Origin: Peptococcaceae bacterium BICA1-7
Lineage (GTDB): Bacteria > Bacillota > Desulfotomaculia > Desulfotomaculales > Desulfocucumaceae
Direction: 5' to 3'
Assembly: GCA_000802095.1 (NCBI GenBank)
Contig: JUEB01000001.1
Location: 124,001 to 188,000 of the forward strand
DNA length: 64,000 nt
Made by a program: the position numbers and the translations under genes. The notes under the pieces are model-generated. The model saw only the letters and a list, made by a program, of their open reading frames with translations. It ran no database searches and was not told the DNA's origin. This document shows positions 22,048 to 49,763 of this stretch, one piece after another (within the stretch, counting starts at the first letter, position 1; every line of letters begins with the position of its first letter).

Positions 22048-22325
22048 ATGGGCATGGGAAGGCTGAAGAAGGTTTTCCCCGGGGGAAACACCAGTAAGGG
22101 CTTTCATTCCTTTTACGACTACATTATCGAGCCGGATGCCACCAGGATATTTGTAATCAAGGGGGGTCCGGGGGTAGGCAAGTCAACTTTTATGAGAAAA
22201 ATTGGGGAAACTATGCTTAGCAGGGGCTACGATGTTGAATTCCACTGCTGCTCCTCGGACAACGGGTCACTGGACGGGGTGATGATTCCGGCCATCAGGG
22301 TAGCACTCCTGGACGGAACCGCCCC
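22048..22325 (+). pseudogene. P-loop ATPase gene split by insertion (5' part)
   Basis: The first 92 or so codons encode an ATPase of the PRK06851 type: MGRLKKVFPGGNTSKGFHSFYDYII, a Walker A loop GGPGVGKST, and FHCCSSDNGSLDGV followed by VALLDGTAP, after which the family sequence stops abruptly. From there the frame runs for another 70 codons antisense to the recombinase gene and is meaningless. AGGGGGT precedes the ATG. The rest of this gene is not found elsewhere in the window. Excision of the element would be expected to restore the frame. Confidence 0.8.
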
Positions 22326-23961
22326 CCAGAGTGCGGTTCCCATTGTCAAATTGATAAACGCTGTTCACAGGGCCGCTGATACCGGGAAATATACCGGGAA
22401 TCCGGCCCTTGATAATAATGTTCCGGCCCTCCACAATAACCTTGTCCACCAGCAAGCGTATCACATATTGCTTCTCCTCGAAAGTCAATTCTTCCAGCCG
22501 GCCTGCAAATTCATCCACCGCTTCCCGTAAAGCCTGCTGCTCTTCTTCCATAAGCTGCTGGCGGCGGGACTCTCCGTTTAATTCCTCCAGACGTTTTTCC
22601 ATCCTGCCAATTCTATCTTTAATTCCAAGCAGTATCCTGTCGGCTTCTTCTTCCGGTATGGTGCCTTTCTGGTAACCTCTAATAATCCTGGCCCGTTCTG
22701 TGCTGGCTTCTTCCATCAATCGCCCCACTGTCATGATTTCATCATTTATTGATTTCAAATTATCACCCAGGCCCTGGTCCTTCAGCTCCTCCGCAAGCAC
22801 CTTCGGGTCGGCCAGCCATCCGGCAACTTTATCCCAGACAATATTTTCTACCCGCTCAGCCGGCACATTAGAGGATGCGCATCGGTCAACGCCAGTAATG
22901 CCGGGACTTTTGGCCGTGCAGACATAGTACCTGTAATACTCCAAATGATCCTTAACTTTACCTTTTTTCCTTATCCTGTTGCCATGCATGGTATGCCCGC
23001 AGCCAGGAACACCGCACTGCACCATTCCGCTTAACATGTATTGCTCAATCGCCTTGCCCGGCCTCACCCGCCTGGCATCCCTCAGACGGTATTGAACTTC
23101 ATCCCAGGTCTGACGATCGATTATCGGCGGCACCTGAGTGGAGCACCAATCTTCCCGGGGACGTTTCTTTCGGGAAATCTTTTCTTCCTGGGGACGGTAA
23201 CGGTTATTTTTAACTCCAGTAGAGTCCTCCACCCGCAGGTGCAGGACACCGGTATAGGTTTCATTAGTGAGTATACGCCGCACTGTAGCCCTGTGCCACA
23301 GGGCTTCTTTATCTTTGTTCTTAGGCTCTCGCGGGGGCGGTATGCCCATGTCGTTCAGCCTGCGGGCCACCGCATAAGGTCCCACATATTGGCCAGGCCC
23401 GGCCTCCAGCACCCAGGAATACATCATGCGTAACACCCGGGCATCTTCTTCATTTATTATAAGAATATCCTTCTCTTTATCAAAACTGTATCCATAAAGT
23501 CTGGGGTTGTGGGTTAACAGACCCTTTTCGGCTTTTTTCCTTTTACCGTCATTAGTCCTCATCAGTATCTTAGCCTTTTCAAACTCGGCAATGGACCCTC
23601 TGAGCTGATAAAAAAGCTTACCGTCCGGTGTGTTTTTCCACTCAAAATTAATAAAATCTATTTTAACCTTTGCCTTCTCTACCTTTTCTGTAATGACCAG
23701 CTGATTCATTAGAGAACGGGCCAGCCGGTCAGGATCATAACATATGAAATAATCCACACCCCCCTGTTTTAGCCGATCCAGAACCATCATAAGCTCCGGC
23801 CGGTTAAGAATTTCGCCCGTAACGTCATCATGATAAACTTCCACTCTGCCACAGCCCAGCTCCCTGGCCCGCTGACGGCATTTTTCCTCCTGAACTTCGA
23901 GGCTGTATCCTTCCCGGGCCTGGTCCTCCGTGCTGACACGTATATAAATAACGGCAAGCAA
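22267..23961 (-). CDS. Large serine recombinase (resolvase/invertase family integrase)
   Basis: A 564-residue site-specific recombinase: N-terminal catalytic domain with the serine nucleophile in YIRVSTEDQ (residue 10) and the YDPDRLARS arginine motif, a recombinase domain (GYSFDKE...VARRLNDMGIPPP), a zinc-ribbon (CGVPGCGHTMHGN, later VCTAKSP and RCASSNVPAERVE), and a long coiled coil (about 420-500). It integrates and excises the element. TTG start with GGGGGTG 5 bases upstream. The last 20 or so codons are antisense host ATPase sequence across the junction, so the C-terminus differs between the integrated and excised states. Confidence 0.9.
   Translation of the reverse strand: MLAVIYIRVSTEDQAREGYSLEVQEEKCRQRARELGCGRVEVYHDDVTGEILNRPELMMVLDRLKQGGVDYFICYDPDRLARSLMNQLVITEKVEKAKVKIDFINFEWKNTPDGKLFYQLRGSIAEFEKAKILMRTNDGKRKKAEKGLLTHNPRLYGYSFDKEKDILIINEEDARVLRMMYSWVLEAGPGQYVGPYAVARRLNDMGIPPPREPKNKDKEALWHRATVRRILTNETYTGVLHLRVEDSTGVKNNRYRPQEEKISRKKRPREDWCSTQVPPIIDRQTWDEVQYRLRDARRVRPGKAIEQYMLSGMVQCGVPGCGHTMHGNRIRKKGKVKDHLEYYRYYVCTAKSPGITGVDRCASSNVPAERVENIVWDKVAGWLADPKVLAEELKDQGLGDNLKSINDEIMTVGRLMEEASTERARIIRGYQKGTIPEEEADRILLGIKDRIGRMEKRLEELNGESRRQQLMEEEQQALREAVDEFAGRLEELTFEEKQYVIRLLVDKVIVEGRNIIIKGRIPGIFPGISGPVNSVYQFDNGNRTLGGGSVQECYPDGRNHHPVQ
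22310..22345. other. Putative attachment site (attL) of the serine-recombinase element
   Basis: The host ATPase homology ends at about 22325 and the recombinase's own family sequence ends near the same place. Around the junction lies an imperfect dyad, GGAACCGC (22315-22322) and GCGGTTCC (22333-22340), as expected for a serine-recombinase half-site pair. Confidence 0.5.
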
Positions 23962-24783: not shown

Positions 24784-25485
24784 TTATATAAGTCTTTTGC
24801 AAACCCACCACTGTTCCACAATCTTTTCTTCCCGGAGGTTTATGTACCTTATCCTTATCCTTTTGCTTTTGCCCGGGCTAACTCCCAAGAATCCTTCAGT
24901 CACCGGAGCGAAGGCGGCGCACCGCCTACCTTCACCGGATTCGCGGCCTTCCAGACGGTATGGAGAGCAGAAAAGCTCTTTGCTGTCATACTGCCTGCAC
25001 AGCCCGCACTGCTGGCTTTCACCGCCGCTTTGCCCGATTTCTTCCCAGGCCGGGTGCAGCCTGAAGGCATGGCTGTCTTCCCGCTCGTACAGCGTTATAA
25101 CGCCAGCCTCATGAAGCGACAGGAGAAACACCCTGTCGTCGCTGGCCCAAAGTGTCACCGGAGGGACATCATTAAACCAGTCTTCGGGAACCTCCTCTTC
25201 CCCTTCTTCCGTGGGTGTGGCGGTATTATCAAATATTATGTTTGCATCATCCCTGACCATTGCTTTCTTGCCTTCCATGGCCAGCACCAGGGCCTGCGCC
25301 CGGAGATATTGCACCCGCATGTGCCAGGCTGTTCTTTCATCGTCCACATCTATATAGTCAAGTCCCAGCAGCAGGGCTGCCGCCCCGGGGATGGAGTCGG
25401 CTTCCCCCAGCCTGCCGTCAGGCAATTGCGCCAGTAGCGGCATAACAGGCTTTTCGTCCACATCGAGATATTTGCATTGCATCAT
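24784..25485 (-). CDS. Hypothetical protein, last gene of amidoligase operon
   Basis: A 233-residue soluble protein of unknown family. The N-terminal part is acidic (DVDEKPVMPLLAQLPDGRLGEADSIPGAAALLLGLDYIDVDDERTA), and the C-terminal third has a cysteine cluster (QCGLCRQYDSKELFCSPYRL, then RRCAAFAPV) that could bind zinc or a cluster. It overlaps the preceding small helix-turn-helix gene by 4 bases (ATGA), with GGAGG 9 bases before the start, so it is translated from the same mRNA as the amidoligase genes. Its role is likely tied to that operon. Confidence 0.7.
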   Translation of the reverse strand: MMQCKYLDVDEKPVMPLLAQLPDGRLGEADSIPGAAALLLGLDYIDVDDERTAWHMRVQYLRAQALVLAMEGKKAMVRDDANIIFDNTATPTEEGEEEVPEDWFNDVPPVTLWASDDRVFLLSLHEAGVITLYEREDSHAFRLHPAWEEIGQSGGESQQCGLCRQYDSKELFCSPYRLEGRESGEGRRCAAFAPVTEGFLGVSPGKSKRIRIRYINLREEKIVEQWWVCKRLI

Positions 25486-25691
25486 TTATGGTTTCCTCCT
25501 TCCGGCTCCGGGCCGAAGACCCTTTCCATGCCGTCAAGGCTTATCAGCCATATACTTCCGGACTTTCTTATTTCATGAGTCTTGAACCTTTTCCGCTCTA
25601 TAGCCTTCCTGACTGTCGCCCCGTCAGCCAGCTTCCACCTGGCCGCAGCTTCATTCAGGGTTAAAACCCTTCTTAAATCAATCTCTGTCAT
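25482..25691 (-). CDS. Small helix-turn-helix (excisionase-like) protein
   Basis: Sixty-nine residues: LTLNEAAARWKLADGATVRKAIERKRFKTHEIRKSGSIWLISLDGMERVFG. The layout (helix-turn-helix, then a basic wing and a tryptophan strand) resembles MerR/excisionase-type winged helix domains. It could be a regulator of the operon in which it lies or a DNA-binding accessory factor. It sits between the amidoligase gene and the cysteine-rich gene, overlapping the latter by 4 bases. A 64-bp spacer with the direct motif TGTCACGACATAGTGTC separates it from the amidoligase gene. Confidence 0.65.
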   Translation of the reverse strand: MTEIDLRRVLTLNEAAARWKLADGATVRKAIERKRFKTHEIRKSGSIWLISLDGMERVFGPEPEGGNHK

Positions 25692-25755
25692 TTGTCCCGA
25701 CCTCGTGACATATATTTTACTGTATTATACTTATGTCACGACATAGTGTCAAGAT

Positions 25756-27324
25756 TTATCTTGTCTGCCACCGGCTGGTGGCATAAAGCCAGAGGGCTGC
25801 CGCCTTATCCCGGGAATTGTTGAATATTGCGTCAACGAAGCTCCTGACCTGGCTGTGTCCTTCGTCACCGCCGGACCTGGTGGTTTCCCCCAGTCTATTC
25901 GGATTCCCCGGTATGAACTGCGCCCTCTCCCTGGTGCTGTCGCGGTTTCGCCTGAGGTTTTCGGCAGCGTGAACAACAGCATTGGCTATTTTAACATTGG
26001 CCTGGATTTGTTTTGGGTCCAGCGTTCCATTAAAGTGCCGGAATTCAACGGTATTTTTTTGCCCCGGGCCCACGTTCCTGAGATTTAAGCCATAATACCT
26101 TGAGGGGGAGACTTCGGAAATAAGGCTGCTCTGGGGAACTCTGCGGTCCCTAAAAAATCTGTCCACCCCCCTGGGAGCAGGCGCGGAATAATTAAATCCT
26201 CCGCCCTCCCCCCGGTGCCGCCCCTGGCTCTCCCCGCCGGCCGCCATCCGGTATATAACATCCTCAAATCCGGCTGCAATTCTCGCCAGGCGTATCCACC
26301 GCCAGGTGCTCTCATCCAGCGGATCAGCTCCCACATGGACATGGCCGCCGCAGCGCATGTTCACCCGGCCCCCATTCCGCTTTACAATCTCGCAAACCTC
26401 CTCCAACTGCCGCCAGGTCTCCGGTGTATCCCGGAGGATGGGTGATATTACCTCGCCCCCTATATCTCCGTCAGAGACACTCCCGTCCCTTTCAACCGCC
26501 CACATTCCAGGAGTCCTGGCTGCGTGGTACCCGCTGCGCCTGGGGGTGGACACCAGGCCGGCCGCATGCAGGTCCCTGGCCACAGAGTTTATGTCAGCCC
26601 CTACAAATTCTATTTCAATGCCGAAGGTGTTCTCGGAGCCCCCAAGAACATTTTCGTACTCATACTCAATGTTGCTCCCGTCTCTGGCCAGCTCGTAAAG
26701 GGACTCAAAGGCATTTTCATCCCTGGAAAGGTATATGCCGTCATCGTGCTGCCTCTGGTACTCCTCCCACCTTGCCAGCCTCTCCCGGCGATGCTGCTCT
26801 TCAGCAGCATCCAGTTCCTGAAGATTACTGTACTCCTCGTTTTGCATACTGGTTTGTTCAGGGGCGGACACCCCTCCGGCCGGAGTATGGCTGCCGGTAC
26901 TTCCTTCACCCCGCATACCAACAGCCCTGTTGAGAGCCTCCATGTGGCGGCAGGTACCTCTCCTGTATATATAGTCGGGGCAGCTGCACCGGTCTGTACT
27001 TGTTCTGTAGACCCTTCCACTGTTGCTTAATACATCAGCCTCGTCAGCCGATACAAAAGTAACGGTTAACCTATCGGTATCTCCCCGGGTTCTTGACGGG
27101 ACTTCTACCTCAAATGGTCCGGTGACCAGTTGGTTAGCAGCTGCCGCATCCGTATCCGCCGTAGCAGCTATTTGATTCATGCTTTCCAGTATATCGTTAA
27201 TTACTGAAGCATCACCGGAACCACTGCCTCCAGCACCTCCAGTACCACCTATACTTCCGGAACCCCCGGCCACTCTCCCGGGGCCAGCCTGCCCGCCGCC
27301 CCTTCCCGTTCTGCCCTTAGGCAT
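25756..27324 (-). CDS. SWIM zinc-finger plus amidoligase (COOH-NH2 ligase) protein
   Basis: A 522-residue protein with three parts: a glycine-rich low-complexity start (1-40); a SWIM zinc finger CSCPDYIYRRGTCRHMEAL (about 113-131), which usually contacts DNA or protein; and a putative amidoligase domain (about 235-450) with GIEIEFVG, MRCGGHVHVGAD and EFRHFNGTLD, the acid, histidine and arginine motifs of the glutamine-synthetase-like COOH-NH2 ligase family. Such enzymes form amide bonds on peptides, proteins or small metabolites with ATP. It overlaps the DUF4417-like gene by 8 bases and has GAGGTG 7 bases before its ATG. The substrate is unknown. Confidence 0.75.
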   Translation of the reverse strand: MPKGRTGRGGGQAGPGRVAGGSGSIGGTGGAGGSGSGDASVINDILESMNQIAATADTDAAAANQLVTGPFEVEVPSRTRGDTDRLTVTFVSADEADVLSNSGRVYRTSTDRCSCPDYIYRRGTCRHMEALNRAVGMRGEGSTGSHTPAGGVSAPEQTSMQNEEYSNLQELDAAEEQHRRERLARWEEYQRQHDDGIYLSRDENAFESLYELARDGSNIEYEYENVLGGSENTFGIEIEFVGADINSVARDLHAAGLVSTPRRSGYHAARTPGMWAVERDGSVSDGDIGGEVISPILRDTPETWRQLEEVCEIVKRNGGRVNMRCGGHVHVGADPLDESTWRWIRLARIAAGFEDVIYRMAAGGESQGRHRGEGGGFNYSAPAPRGVDRFFRDRRVPQSSLISEVSPSRYYGLNLRNVGPGQKNTVEFRHFNGTLDPKQIQANVKIANAVVHAAENLRRNRDSTRERAQFIPGNPNRLGETTRSGGDEGHSQVRSFVDAIFNNSRDKAAALWLYATSRWQTR

Positions 27325-28372
27325 CCTCTGTCACCTCGCCTTTGATGTCCATATAACACTTGGTAAATTCAGAGACGTTCAATAAAAAAAAGGCATCAAA
27401 ATCAATGCCTTCAACAAATTCCTTTCTCCCGTCTGCCCTGAAGGTTTTTCCCTTCCTGGCCTTCATGAAAGCCTGGCTGTTCATAAAGCTTATATCCCTG
27501 CCGCCACTGCCTATCTCCCGCAGAACAACTCTGGCCTTTTTCGGCGAGCTCACCCCTACAATAATTATCCGGACATCACCGGGTATCCGCTCGGCCAGGT
27601 ACCGTATCCCGGCCAGGTAACCCTTCCAGGACCCCAGTGTGTGCAGCCCGGTGCCAACCGTCTGGGTGGAGGCCGCCACCACCTGGATTGAGTTTTTAGT
27701 TATATAGTCAGCCCACCAGTCAAGGTCTTTTCGCTGATACCATGCCACGTCTGGAATTGCTTTTATTCCGAACTCCAGCATTTCCTCGTATAATCTTATG
27801 CACCGCCGAATGTTGATCAGGTGCTCATACCGGGGAGAGTCTTCATAAACGCTGAAGTTTGGACTGAAAACAATATCGAATTGTTTTAGATACTTATAAG
27901 AGCAAGCTCTGTTTTTCCATAATCCCTCAAGGAACCTATCCTGAACATAAAAATGTATCCCAACCCTCGTTTCCGGAAGAGTGTTTAACCACCGCTTTAT
28001 ATCTCCCACAACCGCCAGTGCGCTCGGCCTCAATCCGGAACCCGTGGAACTGAAGAACCTGGCTCCGTTCACCACCACCCAGGGCAGGGCGCCGGCGTCA
28101 GGCGTTTTTTTGAATCGATCCCCCGCGGCCGGTAAATAAATAGGTAATCCATCTATCCCTGCCGGCACGATGCTCCTCCCCTCTTTAAAGGAACTGCCGG
28201 CCAGGCCAACCTTCATAAATGCTTTTGTCCCGGGACGACGCGGGCAAATGTATCCACACGTACTGCAGTCACAACTGACTTTCCGCAATACAACACCGCA
28301 CCCAGGACAACCGTCACAGTATACACCTAATTCCTGGCATTGGCCACAGTCAAACCTACATGCCGATATCAT
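27317..28372 (-). CDS. DUF4417-like protein with N-terminal cysteine cluster
   Basis: The 351-residue product begins with a dense cysteine region (CRFDCGQCQELGVYCDGCPG, then CDCSTCGYICPRR), probably one or two metal or iron-sulfur sites. The second half has SPNFSVYEDSPRYEHLINIRRCIRLYEEMLEFGIKAIPDVAWY, which matches the DUF4417 pattern, and a barrel-like run VRIIIVGVSSPKKARVVLREIG. The function of DUF4417 is unknown; it is common on phages and mobile elements. The gene overlaps both neighbours (17 bases with the small gene upstream, 8 with the amidoligase gene), so the three products are probably made together. Confidence 0.7.
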   Translation of the reverse strand: MISACRFDCGQCQELGVYCDGCPGCGVVLRKVSCDCSTCGYICPRRPGTKAFMKVGLAGSSFKEGRSIVPAGIDGLPIYLPAAGDRFKKTPDAGALPWVVVNGARFFSSTGSGLRPSALAVVGDIKRWLNTLPETRVGIHFYVQDRFLEGLWKNRACSYKYLKQFDIVFSPNFSVYEDSPRYEHLINIRRCIRLYEEMLEFGIKAIPDVAWYQRKDLDWWADYITKNSIQVVAASTQTVGTGLHTLGSWKGYLAGIRYLAERIPGDVRIIIVGVSSPKKARVVLREIGSGGRDISFMNSQAFMKARKGKTFRADGRKEFVEGIDFDAFFLLNVSEFTKCYMDIKGEVTEDA

Positions 28373-28613
28373 TGGAAAATACTCCGGATCTGTATTTTAA
28401 TGCCCTGTCAGTCAGGTAGATCAAATACTCCTTTTCTTCCTTTTCAATGTTGGAATTCAATACTATGGGCAGTTGGCGTTCCACCAATCGAAGAACATCA
28501 ACAAGTTGGACTACACCTATATGCCGGGCTTTTCTTTGTTTCTCTTGCTTCCCACTTATGGGATTGGCCATAAGTAATGCTGCCAATTCAGATTTGGTCA
28601 TTGATTCTGTCAT
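28356..28613 (-). CDS. Hypothetical 85-residue protein, first gene of amidoligase operon
   Basis: A small, charged, mostly helical protein (MTKSELAALLMANPISGKQEKQRKARHIGVVQLVDVLRLVERQLP, then EKEEKEYLIYLTDRALKYRS). The ATG at 28613 has GGAGG 6 bases upstream, the best start signal of the operon. It overlaps the DUF4417-like gene by 17 bases. No family recognised; the helix pattern could be a small DNA-binding or adaptor protein. Confidence 0.6.
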   Translation of the reverse strand: MTESMTKSELAALLMANPISGKQEKQRKARHIGVVQLVDVLRLVERQLPIVLNSNIEKEEKEYLIYLTDRALKYRSGVFSNDIGM

Positions 28614-29387: not shown

Positions 29388-30227
29388 CTAACCTTTAAGT
29401 CTAGCAAGCATCCGCTGAGCTTCTAAAACAAACTCCTCCATTTCCCTTATCACCGACTGGCGCTCTGCAAGCCCCATCTTTCTGTACTCCTTCTGAAAGG
29501 AGTCAAACCCTTTTTTCCACCGCCCGGCTAATTTAGTCAGTGTAGACTGGGCTGGGAGATTGGCCAGGTACCGGCTGGCCCACTCGGTGGCCTGCTGCCC
29601 GGTCAGATTCTCGCCGGAGATTTTATTGAACAGCTCCTTTTGCCCCTGGGGGTGGTTTTTGAGGGACATCAGCGCCCGGGCGTGCATCTCGTTGAAGTCT
29701 TCCCTGCCGCAGAATATCTCCAGCATGTCCCCAGGCAGCTTGAGGATGTTCAGCAGCTGGTGGACCCGGACCTTTGAGAAGCCCAGGAGCTTCCCGGCCT
29801 CCTCCATGGTCATCTTTTTCCCCGTCTTTTGAGACTCCTCCATGATGTCCTTTATGGCCATGGCGGTCTCCAGGGGGGTGAGCCCTTCCCTCTGGACATT
29901 CTCCACCAGCGACTGCACCTTGACCTGTATGACCGATAGGTTTTCTTCCTTTATAACAGCCGGTATTGTTTTGTTGCCCAGCAGCCTGGAGGCCCTCCAC
30001 CTGCGTTCCCCCGCGATCAGCTCGAAGGTCCCCCCGGGGACCGGCCTCACTATGACCGGCTCTATCACCCCGTGCTCTCTAATGGAGTCGGCAAGCTCCT
30101 GTATTTTCTTGTCGTTGAATACCCACCTGGGCTGCTTTGACCGGGGCTTTATCAGGTCCAGGTCTATATCCATATGACCGGTTTTTTTGGTCAGATGGTC
30201 AAGCAGCATTTCCTCCCGGCTACCCAA
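29388..30227 (-). CDS. parB: ParB/Spo0J-family partition protein
   Basis: The 279-residue protein has the ParB N-terminal CTPase domain (IKPRSKQPRWVFNDKKIQELADSIREHG, VIVRPVPGGTFELIAGERRWRASRL with the GERRxRA box), the helix-turn-helix KLLGFSKVRVHQLLNILKLP, and a C-terminal helical tail. It binds a parS-like site near the locus and works with ParA to segregate the replicon or element; no parS was recognised by eye. The frame overlaps parA by 8 bases and the TTG at 30227 has AGGT 8 bases upstream; the internal ATG at 30209 is the alternative. Its sequence is distinct from chromosomal Spo0J types in length and C-terminus, consistent with an element-borne copy. Confidence 0.88.
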   Translation of the reverse strand: MGSREEMLLDHLTKKTGHMDIDLDLIKPRSKQPRWVFNDKKIQELADSIREHGVIEPVIVRPVPGGTFELIAGERRWRASRLLGNKTIPAVIKEENLSVIQVKVQSLVENVQREGLTPLETAMAIKDIMEESQKTGKKMTMEEAGKLLGFSKVRVHQLLNILKLPGDMLEIFCGREDFNEMHARALMSLKNHPQGQKELFNKISGENLTGQQATEWASRYLANLPAQSTLTKLAGRWKKGFDSFQKEYRKMGLAERQSVIREMEEFVLEAQRMLARLKG

Positions 30228-31002
30228 CGGACTTACCTGCCTTTATCCACTCGGCCATCTCCAGCGCAAAGCTGCGGTACTGCTTTGCTCCGACGCCATG
30301 CTTGTCAAAGAGCACCACCGGCTTCCCGGCCTCCTGGGACTCAATAACTGACGAGTTAACATGTATCTGGCTTTTGAATACCTTGTCCCCCAGCTGCTCC
30401 CGGAGTCTGTTCACCTTTTCCTCATCCCTGCGCCGGTAGTCCACCATGGTGGGCAGCACCATCCAGTCTTTTAGATCCGGATTAAGCCTTTTCTGCACCA
30501 GGTCAAAAAAGGTTATTATCCGGTCCAGGCCCTTCCTGGCAAACCGGAAAACCTGCACCGGTATAATCACATAATCTGCGGCGGCAAGGGAATTGATCAC
30601 TATCACCCCCAGGCTGGGGGGGTTGTCCAGTATAATATAGTCGTACTTGTCCAGCGATCCAGCCAGGGCATGCCTCAACTGCTGCTCCCGGCCGATCAGC
30701 CCCATCAGCTCCGACTCGGCGGCGCTAAGATCTATGGTGGCGGGCACAAAATACAGGTTTTCAATAGCCGACTCCCTGACCACCTCCTCCAGCCTGGCCC
30801 TCCCCATCAGCAGCTCATATGTCCCGGCAGCCTCCTCCTCCACAAAGCCCATGGCCTCGGTAAGATTCCCCTGGTGGTCCTTGTCTATCAACAGCACCCT
30901 GGCCCCTGAAGCCGCCAGGCAGGCCCCGGTCTCTATTGCAGTGGTAGTCTTGGCGCAGCCGCCCTTCTGGTTGCATATAGCGATTATCAATGCTTTACTC
31001 AT
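30220..31002 (-). CDS. parA: ParA/Soj-family ATPase
   Basis: The 260-residue ATPase has the deviant Walker A loop KGGCAKTT, Walker A' LLIDKDHQGN, and Walker B YIILDNPP. ParA proteins use ATP-driven DNA binding to position ParB-bound DNA. The third Walker A position is cysteine where glycine or valine is more usual. GGAGGTAGATT precedes the ATG. parA and parB are one operon. Together they suggest that the island was, or can be, an autonomous plasmid or circular intermediate, though no replication initiator was identified. Confidence 0.92.
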   Translation of the reverse strand: MSKALIIAICNQKGGCAKTTTAIETGACLAASGARVLLIDKDHQGNLTEAMGFVEEEAAGTYELLMGRARLEEVVRESAIENLYFVPATIDLSAAESELMGLIGREQQLRHALAGSLDKYDYIILDNPPSLGVIVINSLAAADYVIIPVQVFRFARKGLDRIITFFDLVQKRLNPDLKDWMVLPTMVDYRRRDEEKVNRLREQLGDKVFKSQIHVNSSVIESQEAGKPVVLFDKHGVGAKQYRSFALEMAEWIKAGKSVG

Positions 31003-33457: not shown

Positions 33458-33466
33458 TGCTTTGCT

Positions 33467-33784
33467 TTACCGTAAAACCCCCGAGCGGATTTCAGTGTCC
33501 AGGTCAAAGACCTCATTTTCCACAGTAATCGTTATCCTGTCCCTGTTGTCCGGAGGGTAAATGTCCTCCGCCCCTTCCGGCCAGGCCTCTGCGTCGATGT
33601 GGTACGTCCCCGGCCTGGCCGGGTACCCGTATTCAACCTTCCCGCTTTCACCGGGGCCCAGCTTTAAGTCTATGGGGAAGCCGTCCTTGATGGACCCGGT
33701 AACGTCAATCATCCATCCTTTCTTTTTTAAAGCACTTTTTTTGCACTTTTGACCGGCTTTACTGTACAATATCAATATCGCCAT
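33467..33784 (-). pseudogene. Duplicated 3' fragment of the beta-propeller protein gene
   Basis: The last 80 codons (DVTGSIKDGFPIDLKLGPGE to VENEVFDLDTEIRSGVLR) are almost identical to the end of the protein encoded at 34635-36812; only a few residues differ (for example SYP/GYP, YNI/YHI). Upstream of the shared part the frame is unrelated junk (AGQKCKKSALKKKGW) with no ribosome site or signal peptide. It is a partial duplication, about 240 bp, in the same orientation as the parent copy. Confidence 0.75.
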
Positions 33785-34625: not shown

Positions 34626-34634
34626 TCTATTGAT

Positions 34635-36812
34635 TTACCGTAAAACCCCCGAGCGGATTTCAGTGTCCAGGTCAAAGACCTCATTTTCCACCGTGACGGT
34701 TATCCTGTCCCTGTTGTCCGGAGGGTAAATGTCCTCCGACCCTTCCGGCCAGGCTTCGGCGTCGATGTTGTACGTCCCCGGCCTTGCCGGGTAACTGTAT
34801 TCAACCTTCCCGCTTTCACCGGGGCCCAGCTTTAAGTCTATGGGGAATCCGTCCTTTATGGCCCCGGTAACGTCAATCACCCCCGGAATGTCGTCTTTCC
34901 TTGTTACCGTGGCCGTTAGCTGCACCGGGGTGGGGTCACCGTCTATGGAGGTATATGTGGCCTCGCCGGACTGCAGCTTTATTTTTATGTCATAGCCCAG
35001 CTCTTCCACTGTCTTTTCCATTTTGTTGTTGTCATAGGTGTTTTCATCCCACATCACCTTTACATTGCCCAGGGCCAGGTTGGTAAAGGCGGTTAGAACC
35101 GTTCTCCCCCCGGCCGCCGTGTAGTCGAATTCCACCAGGTATTCTTTGCCGTCTTCGACTCCTGTTAGGACAGGGAATTTTGTCCCCCTGTAGTCAATTG
35201 CCGGGAGTGGCTGGCCGTTCATGGCCAGGTTCTGGACCGGTGCGCCGTTCACCAGTACCCCGATGCCAGCAGCCGACAGTTTAAGGGGTGTGTCGGTTTT
35301 TATTTTGCCGTTGAATTTGATCTTAAATTTCCCGTGGTAGGTCTTGCCCGGCTCGGCCTTTCCTGTGACCCCGGTGTCCAGGTCCTCCACCGACAGGTCC
35401 AGGGTGTGCAGCAGCCTCCAGATGTAAATGCCTACGTCGGTGGCGGCCACCATGGTGTCCCTGTTGGCCGCCAGTTCTCCGGACACCCCGGAGGCGTACT
35501 GGGTCCCGCCGGTGGGGCTGGTAAAGGCTATCTCCTGGGCGCAGGCCGTGGTCCCGTCAGCCGGGTCCAGCATGGCCAGGTAGGCGCTCTCATTGCCGTA
35601 TCTGCTGGTGCCCTCCAGTATCCCGGCCCCTCCGTCAGAGCTTCTTATAACCACCGGGGCGGTCTGGGCGTTGGTCTGAAACTGCTTTATCCATTCCGTT
35701 TTGCCGGTGCTACGGTTTATGGCAATGAGGGAGCCCTGCTCCCCCTTCCGGCCCACCGCCGGGAAGTATACCCGGGAGGAAGTCAGGGCCGGGGAGCGGT
35801 TGGAAAAGGTTCCTTTAAGGTCTCCGTTATATAATACATGCTTGTTCCTAACCACATCATAGCCATACACCTGGCTGCGGCAGTCACCAAAGTACAGCAC
35901 GTTCTTTTCCACCGCGAAACTGCCCACAAGGCCGCCTGATAACGGAATGGCTGTCTCGGCATCCTGGCTTATCTGCTCCACCTGGCCGTTTTTATCTATC
36001 CCCAGTATATTGTTGAGGTTATATATACGGAGTTCTCCCCTGCTGGTCCCCTGGTCCAGGCCCACGGCGAAGGACTCATATTTGCCGTCTCCGTCCAGGT
36101 CCAGGGGGGCCGGTGAGGAAGATGTTCTTCCAGAGCCTGTGTCTATATATGCTGTACCGCTTTCCCCACCTTCTTTCAGGGGATCAACCAGCAGCACCAC
36201 CTTGGCGGTGTTCCCGCTGGTGGCCACCACCACCTGGTGGCCCTCCCACTCCATGACCAGGGGGGCCGAGGTTACGTCGGTGGTGTGCAGCAGGTCTTTG
36301 CTCTTATACAGCCTGGCCTTCTTAATGTCGGTAATATCCACAATGTCCAGGTACGGCCCGTAGGCGCCGATAAAAATGTACTTCTTCCCGTCAGGCGTTT
36401 CATAAAAGGTGGGATGGCTCTTGGTGGGCGCCGTTCCGGAAAGGGGTATGCTCCAGTCCGGGTCAATGGTCTTCATATTTTGGTCCAGCAGCTCCCCGGA
36501 GAGAAGGCCGCACATCACATACCCGTTCAGCCTGTTGTTTTCCACAGTTATGACCAGCTGCTGGCCGGCCATGTCAAATTCCCCCTCCCAGTGCCGTCCG
36601 GCGTCCAGTATGAGGGGCTGGGAGAAGGAGGCCCCGCCGGCCTCGTGTATGTACATAAGGTACAGCACCCTGCCCTCCACGGAATTGTCCCGGTTCCTCT
36701 CATCGGTGGAGCCGAAAGTCCTGACCTCATCAGATGTGGCCGCCAGGGCAGGGATACAGGTAAACATTATAAGAAAGGCCATAAGAATTAGCAGCAGTAA
36801 ATGCTTTTTCAT
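34635..36812 (-). CDS. Secreted beta-propeller (PQQ/FG-GAP-like) protein
   Basis: A 725-residue exported protein: signal peptide MKKHLLLLILMAFLIMFTCIPALA, then about 450 residues of repeated blades resembling a PQQ-type propeller (LLVDPLKEGGESG, LDLDGDGKYESFAVGLD with a calcium-loop-like DxDxDG, LIAINRSTGKTEWIKQF, LAMLDPADGTTACAQ), followed by immunoglobulin-like strands (TYHGKFKIKFNGKI, LTATVTRKDDIPG) and a final CARDB-like domain. It is likely a cell-surface or extracellular binding protein. It follows a copper-amine-oxidase-N protein gene with a terminator hairpin between. Its last 240 bp are duplicated at 33467. Confidence 0.8.
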   Translation of the reverse strand: MKKHLLLLILMAFLIMFTCIPALAATSDEVRTFGSTDERNRDNSVEGRVLYLMYIHEAGGASFSQPLILDAGRHWEGEFDMAGQQLVITVENNRLNGYVMCGLLSGELLDQNMKTIDPDWSIPLSGTAPTKSHPTFYETPDGKKYIFIGAYGPYLDIVDITDIKKARLYKSKDLLHTTDVTSAPLVMEWEGHQVVVATSGNTAKVVLLVDPLKEGGESGTAYIDTGSGRTSSSPAPLDLDGDGKYESFAVGLDQGTSRGELRIYNLNNILGIDKNGQVEQISQDAETAIPLSGGLVGSFAVEKNVLYFGDCRSQVYGYDVVRNKHVLYNGDLKGTFSNRSPALTSSRVYFPAVGRKGEQGSLIAINRSTGKTEWIKQFQTNAQTAPVVIRSSDGGAGILEGTSRYGNESAYLAMLDPADGTTACAQEIAFTSPTGGTQYASGVSGELAANRDTMVAATDVGIYIWRLLHTLDLSVEDLDTGVTGKAEPGKTYHGKFKIKFNGKIKTDTPLKLSAAGIGVLVNGAPVQNLAMNGQPLPAIDYRGTKFPVLTGVEDGKEYLVEFDYTAAGGRTVLTAFTNLALGNVKVMWDENTYDNNKMEKTVEELGYDIKIKLQSGEATYTSIDGDPTPVQLTATVTRKDDIPGVIDVTGAIKDGFPIDLKLGPGESGKVEYSYPARPGTYNIDAEAWPEGSEDIYPPDNRDRITVTVENEVFDLDTEIRSGVLR

Positions 36813-42525: not shown

Positions 42526-43404
42526 ATGTCGGTAAGTGATTATTTCCAAACTTTTTGCACCAATTTACGAATGAGCAGTGAAACCATAAGCAAAATTCAA
42601 AATAGGTATCGCCAAATAACAAAGAGAATTAATTTAGATTACTACAACAGCAGCTCTGAAACAAATAATAGTTTATATGTAGGGTCATACGGCAGGGGAA
42701 CAGAGATTTTTACAAGTGATATTGATATAATCGTTCAATTACCATATGAAACTTATGTTAAATTCAATAATTACACAAGCAATGGCCAATCAGCCTTATT
42801 GCAAGAAGTAAAAAGTGTTCTACAAAAAACATATAGCACATCACATCTAAAGGGTGATGGACAAGTAATTGGAATCAACTTTACAGATGGAATTAACTTC
42901 GAAATAGTTCCGGCTTTCGTTAATACTAACGGCAGTTATACTTATCCAAACTCAAACAATGGGGGAAGCTGGGAAGTGACTGACCCCAAAAGTGAAATTG
43001 GTGCCATTAATTCAATGAATAATGAAACTAATAAAAATTTAAAAAGATTATGCAGAATGGCACGTGCTTGGAAAGATAAAAATAGTGTCTCTATGAACGG
43101 CATACTTATCGACACATTAGCCTATAAATTTATAAAAAACTGGCAATATAAGGATAAATCATATTTGTACTACGATTTCATGAGTCGGGATTTTTTTGAG
43201 TATTTGAAAGATTTGAGCACTGAGCAAAATTATTGGCTAGCACCAGGAAGTAATCGTTATGTTTATAAAAATGGTAATTTCCAAAATAAAGCAAAGAATG
43301 CATTTGAAGATGCTAAAGAGGCAATTTCTTATGAGACAAATAAACACTCTTATTCATCCAAACAAAAATGGAGGGGAATATATGGAACGAAATTCCCTGA
43401 ATAA
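42526..43404 (+). CDS. CD-NTase (cGAS/DncV-like) nucleotidyltransferase of CBASS
   Basis: A 292-residue enzyme with the GS motif and first acidic pair in GSYGRGTEIFTSDIDI (G53-S54, D65, D67), a third acidic residue in NFEIVPAF, and a helical C-terminal half with the family segment NKNLKRLCRMARAWKD. On phage infection such enzymes make cyclic di- or trinucleotides that activate an effector. The next gene, overlapping by 23 bases, encodes a SLATT membrane effector, so this is a minimal type I CBASS operon. Nucleotide product cannot be predicted. Confidence 0.9.
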   Translation: MSVSDYFQTFCTNLRMSSETISKIQNRYRQITKRINLDYYNSSSETNNSLYVGSYGRGTEIFTSDIDIIVQLPYETYVKFNNYTSNGQSALLQEVKSVLQKTYSTSHLKGDGQVIGINFTDGINFEIVPAFVNTNGSYTYPNSNNGGSWEVTDPKSEIGAINSMNNETNKNLKRLCRMARAWKDKNSVSMNGILIDTLAYKFIKNWQYKDKSYLYYDFMSRDFFEYLKDLSTEQNYWLAPGSNRYVYKNGNFQNKAKNAFEDAKEAISYETNKHSYSSKQKWRGIYGTKFPE

Positions 43405-43960
43405 CCAGGGATACAAATTGGAGTCACAAATTCGTGAGGCTTTCGGAAGAGTAACTTATACACAAACTTGCCACGAAAAAAAAATACAGAGACTGCTTAA
43501 AATAAATAATAACATAAAAGTCTGGCAGATAATATTGTCTGCCGTTACTACAGGTAGTTTTCTGGCATCATTAATAACATCTGAAAAAATTTCAGGAATA
43601 ATAGGAGCATTATTTTCTTTAACTTTACTAATTCTAAATACTTATAATAAAAACTTTATTCTGGCCGAGACTGCCCAAAAGCACCAGCAAGCATCCGATT
43701 TGCTATGGAAAATTAGAGAAGAGTATGTTTCTTTACTGACTGATTTTGAAATATTAGAGCCAGAGAAAATCATGGGTAAAAGAGATGAACTACAAGAACG
43801 GACTGCCGAGGTATATTCAAATTTCCCTAGAACAGATCCAAAGAGCTATGCTGAGGCTCAAAAAGCTTTAAAAACAGAAGAAGAGCAAACTTTTTCAGAA
43901 AAAGAAATAGATATTATGTTACCCAATTCAATAAGAAGATGCATTAGAGATATTACATGA
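43382..43960 (+). CDS. SLATT-domain two-transmembrane effector of CBASS
   Basis: The 192-residue protein beginning MERNSLNNQGYKLESQIRE has two adjacent membrane helices (VWQIILSAVTTGSFLASLIT and ISGIIGALFSLTLLILNTY) followed by a long cytosolic helical region (ETAQKHQQASDLLWKIREEYVSLLTDFEIL) and an acidic tail, as in the SLATT effector family that pairs with SMODS/CD-NTase enzymes. It is thought to form pores on sensing the nucleotide signal, killing the infected cell. The start at 43382 follows GAGGGG and lies inside the cyclase gene. Confidence 0.85.
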   Translation: MERNSLNNQGYKLESQIREAFGRVTYTQTCHEKKIQRLLKINNNIKVWQIILSAVTTGSFLASLITSEKISGIIGALFSLTLLILNTYNKNFILAETAQKHQQASDLLWKIREEYVSLLTDFEILEPEKIMGKRDELQERTAEVYSNFPRTDPKSYAEAQKALKTEEEQTFSEKEIDIMLPNSIRRCIRDIT

Positions 43961-44364
43961 CTATTTGACTAAGAGTGTCAGTGGACAGTTCTCTGTTTTT
44001 TTCTCTGATTATAAGAAAGCCGGTAACAGGTTATCCCGGCAACCCATAGTTACCCATAGGTCGCCAAGCCGATAATGGACCCGCTGCCCTGATTAGAACC
44101 TACCGGCGCGCTTAAGTAACTTTTATCATGACCAGTCAGGCCCTCCCCTCATCCTCCGCCAGTAGGTTATTAGACATGAAATGTTTGGCATCCTGAAAAT
44201 CTGTCATAAATGCCCCGCATATTTGGCTCAATACATGAACGAGCAATGTTGATGGTTTGTTGGATGATTTTTTTGATTGGTGGGAATAAGGTTTATAGAT
44301 ACCTTAATCACTTGACTATATTAAATTATTAGCCAAAGATACGTTTTAAAGGAGATAGATAACC
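43961..44364. other. Gene-free stretch with decayed module copy
   Basis: Bases 44040-44290 resemble the two-gene module at 42.1-42.4 kb in order (the TACCGGCGCGC, CCAGTCAGGCCCTCCCC and CATCCTGAAAATCTGTC blocks) but with many indels and stops. At 43972-43996 a variant of the GTCAGGGGACGGTTCT hairpin repeat is present. Nothing here looks translatable. Confidence 0.6.
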
Positions 44365-44523
44365 GTGGCGGATCAATTAATGTCACTTTCCAAGATTTTT
44401 TCGGAAAAAATATTTAGAATACCAGACTACCAAAAGAGTCAGGGGACGGTTCTGCGACTCGTTGCCGAATTACATGATTACATGTTCCAACTTATTGCAG
44501 TCAAAAACTCCAACACCAAGTAA
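44365..44523 (+). pseudogene. N-terminal stub of a DUF262 (GmrSD-like) gene
   Basis: GTG at 44365 follows AAAGGAG and opens VADQLMSLSKIFSEKIFRIPDYQ, the diagnostic start of DUF262 proteins (type IV restriction family). After 23 codons the sequence becomes a GAGTC...GACTC hairpin repeat and the frame ends at 44523. The rest of the gene is gone. Confidence 0.7.
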
Positions 44524-44663
44524 CTCATATAATGGATGGAAACGACCTGGTCCGGACTTGCCGAAATCTAGTTCAGAGAGACGTTATAAAGGGCTAATCG
44601 GAAATAAAATTTAATTAGATAACGGCTGCAACGGTTGGTTTAGAATAAAAAAGAGGTGATTTT

Positions 44664-46160
44664 ATGAAAATAACAATGACTATCAACAATATTAAAAACA
44701 TTGATTATGGAGAAATAACCATACCAATAGAAAATGATATCTATGCTGTAGTTGGCAACAATGGAACCGGAAAGAGCACTATAATGTCTTGTTTAGCACA
44801 ATTGATTTCTAGACATAATTTGGGCCTTTTAAGAAAGGAAGATCATGGAGAAGGCTCATATATAAGCTTCGAAACTGATAAAAATAAGGATGTTTGGACT
44901 TGTACAAATAATTTTTGGAGAGCAGACACCTTCCCCCATACTAATCGATTCAACGGAACATATGAAGGAAGCTTATTTTATGGTATGCGATTTATTGATT
45001 CAAAAATCGTTGATGAATTGATGCAGAATGGCAAGATTGAAAAAACCGATATCGTTGACGCAGACATATATATTATTGATCACCTTGGAGAAATAGTATA
45101 TGGAGATAAAAATCGTTATTCTAATTTAAAAAGATTAAGAAATAAAATAATTAGAGATAGACTGGGCTTACGAAATACACCTTATTTTATTGAAGTAAAT
45201 TCACAACTCATTAGCCAATATCGCATGAGCTCTGGAGAATGTTTATTAGTATCATTATTGCATTTTATTTACAATTCTCTCGTTAGAAGGTCTTTACCTA
45301 CAAATGAGCCTATACTAATGTTAATTGATGAGATAGAATTAGCCTTGCATCCTACAGCCATAATGAATTTAATAAAGTTACTAGAAGAACTTGTAGAATC
45401 TTATGATAATTTAACTGTCATTTTGACTTCTCATTCACCAGAAGTTATTAGAAAAATCAAGCCGAGAAATATTTTTAAGCTTGAAACTGACAAGAGTGAA
45501 GCAAATAGTTTTATTGTTTCAAATCCATGCTATCCAAGTTATGCAATAAGAGACATTTATACTCATGATGGCTTTGATTATCTATTATTGGTAGAGGACG
45601 AATTGGCAAAAATAGTTGTCAAAAAAGCGCTAGAAATATTAGAGTTAGAAAATAGCCGGCTTGTAAATGTGCTACCCGTAGGAGGATGGAACAATGTATT
45701 AAAAATGCAATTTGAACTGCTAAATAACAATATATTGGGTGTCGGCAAAATGGTATTCAGCATATTAGATGGTGACGTTCAAAGTTTAATAAAAAAAGAA
45801 CATAAGAGCTTAAGAAAGCTATTTCTCCCTATAAATAGCATTGAAAAATACTTAAAGAAGGTTCTAATAGAGACAGTTGACACCAATATTAAGAAAAAAA
45901 TTAACGATATTTTTTTTAATGTTGAACCCATAGATAACTTAATAAGGGAATATCTAGATAACGAATCTTCAAATAAATCGAAACTGGGAAATAAGTACAA
46001 GAATGATGATGACGGAAAGCGTTTTTACGAGATATTCATCAAAAGGTTAAACAAAAAACAAATAACAGAGCAAGTCTTTATACTGAAGTTTTATGAGATA
46101 ATTGAAAAATATGTTGATTTTACTTCATTTTATGAAAGATTAACCGATGAATTGACTTGA
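44664..46160 (+). CDS. OLD-like AAA ATPase with C-terminal Toprim-like domain
   Basis: The 498-residue product has an ABC-type ATPase head: Walker A GNNGTGKST (31-39), signature MSSGECLLVSLLHF, Walker B ILMLIDEIELALHP and the TSHSPEVI histidine loop. The second half starts DYLLLVEDELAKIVVKKAL, continues VNVLPVGGWNNVLK and FSILDGDVQSL, a Toprim nuclease pattern (E, then DxD). This is the architecture of OLD-family anti-phage nucleases. No Gabija GajB helicase follows; the next gene, after a 485-bp repeat zone, encodes an FRG protein. AAGAGGTGATTTT precedes the ATG. Confidence 0.85.
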   Translation: MKITMTINNIKNIDYGEITIPIENDIYAVVGNNGTGKSTIMSCLAQLISRHNLGLLRKEDHGEGSYISFETDKNKDVWTCTNNFWRADTFPHTNRFNGTYEGSLFYGMRFIDSKIVDELMQNGKIEKTDIVDADIYIIDHLGEIVYGDKNRYSNLKRLRNKIIRDRLGLRNTPYFIEVNSQLISQYRMSSGECLLVSLLHFIYNSLVRRSLPTNEPILMLIDEIELALHPTAIMNLIKLLEELVESYDNLTVILTSHSPEVIRKIKPRNIFKLETDKSEANSFIVSNPCYPSYAIRDIYTHDGFDYLLLVEDELAKIVVKKALEILELENSRLVNVLPVGGWNNVLKMQFELLNNNILGVGKMVFSILDGDVQSLIKKEHKSLRKLFLPINSIEKYLKKVLIETVDTNIKKKINDIFFNVEPIDNLIREYLDNESSNKSKLGNKYKNDDDGKRFYEIFIKRLNKKQITEQVFILKFYEIIEKYVDFTSFYERLTDELT

Positions 46161-46183
46161 TTGCATATGGTGTTAGGGGGACA

Positions 46184-46249
46184 ATGGTGCCAGGCTCTTA
46201 ACTTTTTTAACTTATTGTTTGCCCTACCTGCTAGTCAGTGAACTATGAA
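46184..46249 (+). repeat. 66-bp intergenic repeat, copy 1
   Basis: ATGGTGCCAGGCTCTTAACT...CTGCTAGTCAGTGAACTATGA. About 94% like copy 2 at 46315. Between them lies a fragment of the 42.1-kb module (46245-46310, ACATACACGCCCATGTGGCC). The whole 46161-46645 stretch is repeats and fragments without a gene. Confidence 0.8.
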
Positions 46250-46314
46250 TCACGCCATAAACATACACGCCCATGTGGCCGACCTCGGACTCGAGACCTT
46301 GGACTTGGGTCCGG

Positions 46315-46380
46315 ATGGTGCCAGGCTCTTAACTTTTTTAACTTATTGTTTGCCCTGCCTGCTAGTCAGTGGACTATGAC
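46315..46380 (+). repeat. 66-bp intergenic repeat, copy 2
   Basis: Same sequence as copy 1 with two or three substitutions, preceded by TCCGG. Downstream at 46441-46469 is a GAGTC...GACTC hairpin repeat related to the one in the DUF262 stub. Confidence 0.8.
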
Positions 46381-46645
46381 TCACATCACAGAGAATAAGG
46401 AAGGTTGTTGACATTTCAGGCTCTATGTGTCAGGGGACAAGAGTCAGGGAGGGGATGGTTCTTCGACTCATTGCCAAATCAGCAAAGGGCTGTACCAGGT
46501 GCTCAGATTTTTTAGTTACTGTAGCATGGAAATTCAGCCAGGACCTTGTATATCAATGAACATGGGATATTATCGGTACCCTTGGTGGCCTGCTGATCAC
46601 TTTCATTTCCATCATAGGCTAATCGTCACATAAGGTGGTGTACCT

Positions 46646-47539
46646 ATGGAACCTCATGTAATTCATTCGTTACTGGAGTTTCTTGATGTGCTTGATAAAT
46701 TGAAATTTCAGTTTTCCCATTCCGCTAAAGCGATGGATTTCTCCTATCGCGGCGTATGTAACAGTTCTTATCCATTGCTACCCGGAATATACCGAGAGAT
46801 CGAACTGAAAGAAAATGGTATTTCAGGCAAGGAAAAAGTGTATCTAGCTCGCGAATATGAAATTTTAAGTCACTTTATCAAAGAAGCGAGCGGCTATATT
46901 TCAAATATACTTAAGGATGACTATTTGTTATGGATGGAATATGCCCAGCATTTTGGTGTCCCAACACGGCTATTGGATTTTTCGTCCAATCCTTTGGTGG
47001 CTCTGTACTTTTGCTGTAAGTATAAGCCAGAAACAGAGGGTTCAGTTTGGGTTCTGAACGAAATAAACTTTTATAATTGGTGCTGCCATTCCGATTTTGT
47101 TATACATAACGAACCCATCACCAAACAGCAAATAATCAATTCTATTATCGCTGAGATGAAAGGGTCTTTTGATTATGATCCCGAGAAAATCGAGATGAAA
47201 AGACCAATTTCATATATTCCCTACTATATTGATCAGCGTATGATAGCTCAAAGTAGCCGTTTTCTGATCTGGGGAACAGAAAACCGCCCATTAGAAGAGA
47301 TGGTCAATGAAAGCCAATATATGATTTTATCTCCAGAAGGCATGAGATATGGTATAGTAGGCGATACACGTTGTCTGTTTCAATTCAAAATACCATCGTG
47401 CTGTAAATACAGCATATTAAAACAATTGAATATTTGCGGAATCAATGAAAAGGCTTTGTTCCCCGGCCTTGATGGTATTGGCAGATATATTGCTGATATA
47501 TATCGAACAAACGTAGATGACTTGATTGAAATGATGTGA
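46646..47539 (+). CDS. FRG-domain protein
   Basis: The 297-residue protein has the FRG signature in FSYRGVCNSSYPLLPGIYRE and the second conserved block LLWMEYAQHFGVPTRLLDFSSNPLVALYFCC. FRG domains are found in phage-defence and toxin contexts, and are thought to be ligand-binding or enzymatic, with unclear chemistry. AAGGTGGTG precedes the ATG. It is a single-gene unit between repeat-rich gaps, in the same direction as the ATPase gene; the two could be one system or separate cassettes. Confidence 0.85.
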   Translation: MEPHVIHSLLEFLDVLDKLKFQFSHSAKAMDFSYRGVCNSSYPLLPGIYREIELKENGISGKEKVYLAREYEILSHFIKEASGYISNILKDDYLLWMEYAQHFGVPTRLLDFSSNPLVALYFCCKYKPETEGSVWVLNEINFYNWCCHSDFVIHNEPITKQQIINSIIAEMKGSFDYDPEKIEMKRPISYIPYYIDQRMIAQSSRFLIWGTENRPLEEMVNESQYMILSPEGMRYGIVGDTRCLFQFKIPSCCKYSILKQLNICGINEKALFPGLDGIGRYIADIYRTNVDDLIEMM

Positions 47540-47807
47540 CTAATGAAATGTCAGGGACCTGGAAATTATGCTACTGTAGGCGAGCCGGGGCGGTTCTAGC
47601 TTGCCCCTATGGGCATAACCGTACCAGGCCTCACTGTAAGAAAGCAGATCTGGCCACCGTCCAGCAGGAGTTCATTGAAGAGAGTAAATATTGGGAGCCA
47701 GAGCCTTAACGTGATGAGGAACTGAAATGATTAGGGCAGCACTACACAGGAAATTACAGTATCTATATAACTTTGTTATAACGAATATTTATTAAGGGAG
47801 GCAAATT
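47540..47807. other. Relic zone between FRG and kinase genes
   Basis: No full gene. One frame, near 47627-47709, reads RPHCKKADLATVQQEFIEESKYWEPEP then stop, with coding-like character but no start, and looks like a 3' gene fragment of unknown origin. Confidence 0.4.
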
Positions 47808-49001: not shown

Positions 49002-49082
49002 AGGAAAGTAAGCTTAATTTTATATCGTGGGACCCATGGGGGGTCAGACCTGAAAACTTGACATTTTGGATGTCACGATCCG

Positions 49083-49142
49083 GATGGTGCCAGGCCCTTA
49101 ACTTTTTTAAATTGTCTGCCCTGCCTGCTAGTCAGCGGACTA
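49083..49142 (+). repeat. 66-bp intergenic repeat, copy 3 (shortened)
   Basis: ATGGTGCCAGGCCCTTAACT...CTGCTAGTCAGCGGACTAT, missing about six bases in the middle. Like copy 2 it is preceded by CCGG. It lies between the kinase gene and the nuclease cassette, so copies of this repeat bracket the 46.6-49.0 kb cassettes. Confidence 0.75.
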
Positions 49143-49199
49143 TTAAATTCACCGGCTATGACACTGCCAGATTGGCCATACAACCAAGGAAGTGAGTAA

Positions 49200-49763
49200 A
49201 TGGGACGTGAATATACGTTTGAGATTAAACAGGCGCTAATTCATTATGACCCGGATGAGCTGGAGAAATGGAAACAGGGTGATCCGGCCATCGTTCCTCC
49301 GCACGTACTTAAATGGAATGGCCCAGGCCGCCAAAACGGATACGGCTACGGTGAGCATGTAGTGAAAAGGCATTTAACCGGCCAGGGGTTTCAGGTAATA
49401 GTAAATGATTATAACTTTTTTCCCGTTAAGAAATCGAAATTCCATATCAATAATGCCATTATTCAAGAGGCAATTGGAAAAGAAAGATACGCCCGCCTGC
49501 AGAAGGCGTTTGGCACGGTCATAAATCAGGGGGTAAGGATAGAACACCCGGATATATGCATATTCCAGCCGGAGTTGATCTTCGCTGAAGTAAAAAGGGA
49601 CAGGGACCGGCTGCGCCAGCCCCAGGTTATGTTTGCCGCTGTAGTATCGGCCGTTCTTAATATTCCTTTCTTGTCATATAGGGTATTACCTGTCGGGGCC
49701 AACCCGGATATGTCTACACTTTTAATAAGGCAGGAACTTCCGGAAGAAGTGTTTATTGTATAA
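49200..49763 (+). CDS. Predicted PD-(D/E)XK nuclease (VRR-NUC-like)
   Basis: The 187-residue product has RIEHPDICIF (D118) followed by LIFAEVKRDRD (E130, K132), the catalytic core of PD-(D/E)XK nucleases. The N-terminal half (YEIKQALIHYDPDELEKWKQGD and GYGYGEHVVKRHLTGQGF) contains a family-typical helix. GGAAGTGAG precedes the ATG. It is the first of eight same-strand genes with small gaps (49200-55388), so it probably belongs to that cassette. Confidence 0.7.
   Translation: MGREYTFEIKQALIHYDPDELEKWKQGDPAIVPPHVLKWNGPGRQNGYGYGEHVVKRHLTGQGFQVIVNDYNFFPVKKSKFHINNAIIQEAIGKERYARLQKAFGTVINQGVRIEHPDICIFQPELIFAEVKRDRDRLRQPQVMFAAVVSAVLNIPFLSYRVLPVGANPDMSTLLIRQELPEEVFIV

Follow-up and report, generated by a model that had tools for sequence, protein, structure and literature searches.

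A conserved mobile-element module combining a SWIM-finger amidoligase, protein X and a DUF4417 protein with a predicted transglycosylase-type fold

Introduction

Ligases of the Amidoligase_2 family were reportedly predicted in 2009 to be modification enzymes, and gamma-glutamyl tagging of proteins or peptides is said to have been predicted earlier for the amidoligase family; no function of an Amidoligase_2-family ligase is recorded in the literature searched here. In phages, amidoligases are accompanied by a gamma-glutamyl cyclotransferase (GGCT) and a class II glutamine amidotransferase (GAT-II), e.g. Salgado gp97-99. The phage enzyme CmoY joins glycine to carboxymethylcytosine in DNA, and ParBc genes are frequent among its neighbours (PMC12783734). 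In the Dpd systems, the tRNA-guanine transglycosylase (TGT) homologue DpdA is paired with the ParB-like ATPase DpdB (PMC12839542), while fusion proteins of ParB and DUF4417 are described in phages (PMC12704722). The locus analysed here lies in a 64,000-nucleotide stretch of the genome of Peptococcaceae bacterium BICA1-7 (the window, to whose positions all coordinates refer unless stated otherwise). It brings together an Amidoligase_2 ligase, a DUF4417 protein and a nearby ParB, in a gene set that as a whole is not described in the literature searched.

Results

The module consists of five minus-strand genes. The tight group starts with the gene of a small conserved protein of 85 aa (28356..28613, -), followed by that of the 351-aa DUF4417 protein (27317..28372, -; PF14386), in which an N-terminal cluster of ten cysteines precedes a domain with a predicted TGT fold. 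Next are a 522-aa protein with a SWIM zinc finger and a glutamine synthetase (GS)-like COOH-NH2 ligase domain (Amidoligase_2; 25756..27324, -; PF12224 and PF04434), a 69-aa HTH_59/excisionase-like DNA-binding protein (25482..25691, -; PF20038) and the 233-aa protein X (24784..25485, -), which shows conserved C-terminal cysteines in the alignment. The 85-aa and DUF4417 genes overlap by 17 nt, the DUF4417 and amidoligase genes by 8 nt and the 69-aa and X genes by 4 nt; a gap of 64 nt separates the amidoligase gene from the 69-aa gene. The ORF coordinates thus bear out the five genes and three overlaps of a preliminary description, and its reading of the genes as operon-like and mobile is also right: the module lies in the 103.4-kb integrative element described below.

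The suggestion that one of the two smallest products is a precursor peptide was not upheld. The 69-aa protein is a DNA-binding protein (HTH_59, 67.6 bits, 9.7e-19 in Pfam; phrog_2655 excisionase). For the 85-aa protein, which is small and conserved, there is an 84-aa homologue in locus L037 (1e-26), and weak homologues occur in two other loci, L040 and L041 (8e-5). The precursor peptide and exporter of a RiPP cluster were not found: the 85-aa protein lacks an evident leader and variable core, and none of the five genes encodes a transporter. Neither the 85-aa nor the 233-aa protein matches a Pfam family above its cut-off, and PADLOC, which has no model for such a module, gave no match for DUF4417, the amidoligase or X among known anti-phage systems; a defence molecule, as raised in the preliminary description, is thereby neither favoured nor disfavoured.

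The preliminary reading of an amidoligase with a SWIM finger stands in Pfam, where both domains are above their cut-offs. Whether the ligase motifs hold in a profile search had been set beforehand as a test, and Amidoligase_2 is matched with 83.3 bits (3e-23; cut-off 22), while SWIM (residues 108-134) is just above its cut-off of 19.6 with 21.1 bits. The finger residues C113, C115, C125 and H127 are invariant across the aligned amidoligase homologues, as are the GS-like motifs EIE (237-239), GGE (289-291), HVH (328-330) and EFR (427-429) in an alignment of seven sequences; the catalytic roles of the motif residues are those that we take to hold in the family. SWIM fingers can bind DNA. From its sequence, the 522-aa protein is a predicted ATP-dependent amide-bond-forming enzyme. 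Sequence searches of the PDB with the amidoligase and DUF4417 profiles yielded nothing convincing. Among viral contigs, the amidoligase query found one distant relative, and the DUF4417 query led to a contig that carries the whole module (L046).

The cysteine-rich partner is indeed a DUF4417 protein (57.5 bits, 1.5e-15; Pfam cut-off 28.9), and its cysteines at positions 5, 9, 12, 19, 22, 25, 34, 36, 39 and 43 are all invariant in six homologues. Its AlphaFold2 model, built on 25 sequences, has a mean pLDDT of 75.6, with most of residues 71-300 at about 80 or more; the cysteine cluster is below 50 and effectively unmodelled. All 50 matches listed by Foldseek for this model in the PDB are TGTs (best 1.4e-7, probability 1.00), and VIA superposes it on the archaeosine TGT 1iq8_A with Z 17.9 over 262 residues (rmsd 4.2 A). 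Within the top 20 matches in a viral library, three of the four that bear enzyme names are phage queuine/tRNA-guanine transglycosylases. The viral-library matches also include protein R9TGF0 of Vibrio phage nt-1, a phage reported to have DpdA2 (PMC6884629). The Pfam scan reported only PF14386 for this protein and no match to the TGT family PF01702. An hhalign comparison of DUF4417 with TGT was rejected as support (P 0.0018, against 0.002 for an unrelated GAT-II control). The nucleophilic Asp of TGTs aligns, in a weak alignment, with N297, where relatives have N, T, S or D; D145, S174, Y176, E183, W211, D216 and Q237 are invariant in the DUF4417 family. Judged from the model, DUF4417 likely has a TGT-type TIM-barrel fold, which provides a predicted fold for a domain that numerous streptococcal phages and linear plasmids of Streptomyces encode; that it carries out a transglycosylase reaction is uncertain.

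Full-length amidoligases were collected from eleven loci, namely the window, contig C15 of the same genome, L037 (G002), L038 (Pelotomaculum), L039 and L041 (Desulfovirgula), L040 (a MAG labelled Armatimonadetes), L042 (Paenibacillus), L043 (a Bacilli MAG), L046 (the viral contig) and L094 (G208). Protein X is encoded no more than about 5 kb from the amidoligase at all eleven, and a DUF4417 protein with the cysteine cluster is near it at eight, which answers positively the preset question of whether DUF4417 and the amidoligase occur together elsewhere. No DUF4417 was found nearby at L042 and L043, and L038 ends at a contig edge. At L042 and L043, moreover, the N-terminus of the amidoligase has a DUF6011 finger, SWIM being absent from the Pfam report. 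GAT-II is present at five of the eleven loci and GGCT at two (C15 and Desulfovirgula L041). A search of 398 genomes from the phylum placed the full-length SWIM-amidoligase (E<1e-100) at three sites. X (E<1e-20) was found at these same sites and nowhere else, and the cysteine-cluster DUF4417 (E<1e-50) at all of them and at one more. Since the amidoligase and X share the same three places in 398 genomes, the co-occurrence of amidoligase, X and DUF4417 exceeds chance; the module is real and conserved. X itself has no fold match in the PDB (best VIA Z 2.2 among 28 chains). X-like proteins are also encoded without an amidoligase in L096 and L097, and exclusivity of X to amidoligases was rejected. 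An amidoligase locus of Desulfovirgula also encodes an ADP-ribosylglycohydrolase. Directly upstream of the amidoligase-X-DUF4417 operon of L094 lies the gene of a 647-aa RimK/R2K-like ATP-grasp protein (L094:3849-5792, -), whose N-terminus is of the same MPKRR, glycine-rich type.

The BICA1-7 genome holds a second version of the module and a remnant of it. The C15 amidoligase is 44% identical to that of the window, and its reading as recoded or as a pseudogene, based on reported stops, was rejected (the 471-aa ORF is intact). It belongs to a second, fuller element (L030; G000 contig C15, 175000-194900) with genes for a VirB4-like ATPase, an FtsK-like translocase, a topoisomerase, the amidoligase, GGCT, X, GAT-II, a DNA ligase-like protein, DUF4417 and a SprT-like protein. 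A degraded remnant of the module adjoins a serine recombinase on contig C17 (L033; about 76.6-77.0 kb) and preserves 30 residues that match the N-terminus of the amidoligase and 56 residues of the DUF4417 cysteine cluster.

The window module is carried by an integrative element whose left end is marked by a large serine recombinase (integrase; 22267..23961, -; PF00239/PF07508/PF13408; phrog_95 integrase, 6e-98). A search for 14-mer repeats did not reveal the attachment site, which was located via a split ATPase gene: the left 12-bp core, AACCGCCCCCCA (22317..22328), lies inside this gene, the other half of the gene is near contig position 250071, and a second copy of the core is at contig position 249743 (window position 125743), giving an element of 103.4 kb. 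The relative G002 keeps the ATPase gene intact. Upstream of the module and on the same strand, the element encodes ParB (ParB_N plus HTH_ParB; 29388..30227, -) and a ParA ATPase (30220..31002, -) whose gene overlaps parB by 8 nt. Its cargo includes RecA, a type IA topoisomerase, a TraG/HerA-type ATPase, type II/IV secretion ATPases, a TadE protein and an ORF read by eye as FtsK-like. By gene content, its anatomy is that of an integrative conjugative-like element, transfer being putative. Neither GAT-II nor GGCT was matched (profiles A4 and GGCT) in window positions 1-64000 plus contig positions 188001-247700, and among the element genes examined, none was noticed that would serve 7-deazaguanine synthesis.

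Elsewhere in the element there is a defence island (42526-57607), where G+C falls to about 0.38-0.40. It encodes a CBASS-like SMODS cyclase with a SLATT_4 effector (42526-43960), an ATPase-Toprim (44664-46160), a PDC-S15 protein (46646-47539), a PD-T4-6-like kinase (47808-49001), a PDC-S02 protein (50096-51085) and a DruM/type II-like cytosine methylase (56651-57607). Three copies of an intergenic direct repeat of ~70 nt, 86-96% identical, lie between defence genes (46184-46384 and 49079-49146). A direct repeat of 253 nt (33462-33714 and 34630-34882, 94% identical) spans the 3' end of a PQQ-like gene (725 aa) and an incomplete second copy.

Linear plasmids of the actinobacteria Streptomyces and Nonomuraea have related operons that encode ParB, then a cysteine-cluster DUF4417, between one and three amidoligases, and a protein of ~180 aa that resembles X. 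This last protein matches X weakly (hhalign P 1.5e-4 over 23 columns, control 0.049) and may be its counterpart, mainly on the strength of gene order. In plasmids of Streptomyces, Nonomuraea and Mycolicibacterium, the DUF4417 gene has parB as a near or direct upstream neighbour. GGCT was identified in both Streptomyces regions examined and not in the one Nonomuraea region examined; Streptomyces YIM 121038 was confirmed to encode a GATase_6 protein. Plasmids with DUF4417 and no amidoligase outnumber those with both (37 against 10 records), and where inspected they usually have ParB adjoining DUF4417, hence DUF4417 and the amidoligase are separable. Phages can encode DUF4417 as a fusion with ParB; the ParB beside the amidoligase of phage locus L047, considered as such a fusion, is fused to a DNA methylase. 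On a Streptomyces plasmid, a protein annotated as "toxin glutamine deamidase domain-containing" (NZ_CP109476.1, 455795-456736) overlaps an amidoligase-like region (hit H86/H153).

Discussion

The preliminary description judged rightly that modification chemistry is the likely theme of the locus. It overlooked X as the most constant partner of the amidoligase, GAT-II and GGCT in the fuller versions, ParB beside DUF4417 in plasmids and the predicted TGT fold of DUF4417. We tentatively favour, at somewhat less than an even chance, the view that the module is the core of a base-hypermodification system of mobile elements in which amide ligation is one step. What the analysis establishes is the set of genes and its conservation, their domains and the predicted fold; nucleic acid as the substrate, the order of the steps and their chemistry are what we infer from these. 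The TGT-fold DUF4417 protein would recognise or process a base in the DNA of the element (host tRNA is less likely), and the SWIM-amidoligase would then use ATP to form an amide bond between a carboxyl group and an amine or amino acid. X would act as an obligatory partner or adaptor, and the neighbouring ParB may link the system to the element DNA. In the fuller versions, GAT-II could provide ammonia from glutamine or reverse the bond, and the cyclotransferase could take off a gamma-glutamyl group.

Base hypermodification is suggested by the intact amidoligase motifs, the co-occurrence of the genes, the match of the DUF4417 model to TGTs, the ParB linkage and the ability of SWIM fingers to bind DNA, and also by the precedents of CmoY and Dpd, which supply comparable parts. 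It is weakened because (i) the nucleophilic Asp of TGTs appears replaced and the DUF4417 and TGT profiles align no better than a control; (ii) the DUF4417 model rests on 25 sequences and leaves the cysteine cluster unmodelled; (iii) the window ParB has the domains of a canonical partition protein and stands beside ParA, seemingly unlike DpdB; (iv) among the element genes examined, none for 7-deazaguanine synthesis stood out; and (v) DUF4417-ParB and the amidoligase are separable in plasmids. A more specific version, in which an altered-active-site TGT-fold protein and the amidoligase of plasmids and integrative elements in at least two phyla, guided by ParB, install an amide-linked base in the DNA of the element itself, to serve as a self mark or an anti-restriction shield, is more doubtful.

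The main rival is the tagging of a protein or peptide with gamma-glutamyl or another amino acid, which the amidoligase would conjugate and GAT-II or the cyclotransferase remove. The target, chosen by DUF4417 and X, might be ParB or a different protein of the element. That GAT-II and GGCT accompany the amidoligase family in relatives and phages (again Salgado gp97-99) speaks for such tagging, as do the ATP-grasp gene directly upstream in L094 and the ADP-ribosylglycohydrolase in an amidoligase locus of Desulfovirgula, R2K ligases near ADP-ribosylglycohydrolases having been interpreted as protein-modifying (PMC4431377). Tagging would, however, leave the TGT-fold partner and the ParB linkage without a role, and the five genes reveal neither a target nor a tag precursor nor a dedicated protease. 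We regard it as possible and rank it below base hypermodification, a preference that stays tentative because no computed result separates the two decisively.

The remaining readings are both unlikely. Were DUF4417 and X to act with ParB in the partition or maintenance of the element, with the amidoligase as an accessory regulator of ParB loading, it would be understandable that Streptomyces plasmids show ParB-DUF4417 adjacency more often than an association with the amidoligase; in Bacillota, however, X and the amidoligase stay together even at L042 and L043, with no DUF4417 found nearby. About as improbable is a small-molecule pathway or a change of the cell surface, e.g. superinfection exclusion via altered wall peptides, in which DUF4417 would serve as a binding protein. 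With reference to Iyer et al. 2009, it has been proposed that prophage amidoligases modify the surface (PMC11318856), but the operon has no transporter, glycosyltransferase or exported enzyme, and its SWIM and HTH parts, together with the link to ParB, suggest a place at the nucleoid.

The ties to ParB, to a TGT fold and to a strict partner narrow the likely target of the amidoligase from any peptide to something that is nucleic acid or nucleoid-bound, and a defined gene set is now available whose product could be traced by nucleoside mass spectrometry.

Among described systems, CmoX/CmoY hypermodification of phage DNA resembles the proposed module in that an ATP-dependent amide ligase with ParBc neighbours decorates a base (PMC12783734), but CmoY is AMP-forming and asparagine-synthetase-like, not GS-like, and a carboxymethyltransferase was not seen in the window module. 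Dpd modification by DpdA/DpdB shares with the window a TGT fold (here predicted) beside a ParB-family protein on a mobile element or plasmid; the window module differs in that the catalytic Asp seems not to be conserved, ParB resembles partition proteins, preQ0 genes were not noticed in the element and an amidoligase is added. The phage ParB-DUF4417 fusions (PMC12704722) have the same two domains, whereas in the window the genes are separate and DUF4417 has an additional N-terminal ten-cysteine cluster and a longer C-terminus. The phage Amidoligase_2 (PF12224) neighbourhoods contain the same ligase family, and their GAT-II and GGCT companions recur in the C15 element and in Desulfovirgula; the window ligase adds the N-terminal SWIM finger, and its element adds DUF4417 and X and is without GAT-II and GGCT. 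We do not assign the gene set to the Dpd or TGT systems and class it as a variant of the known amidoligase neighbourhoods with an added partner of predicted TGT fold.
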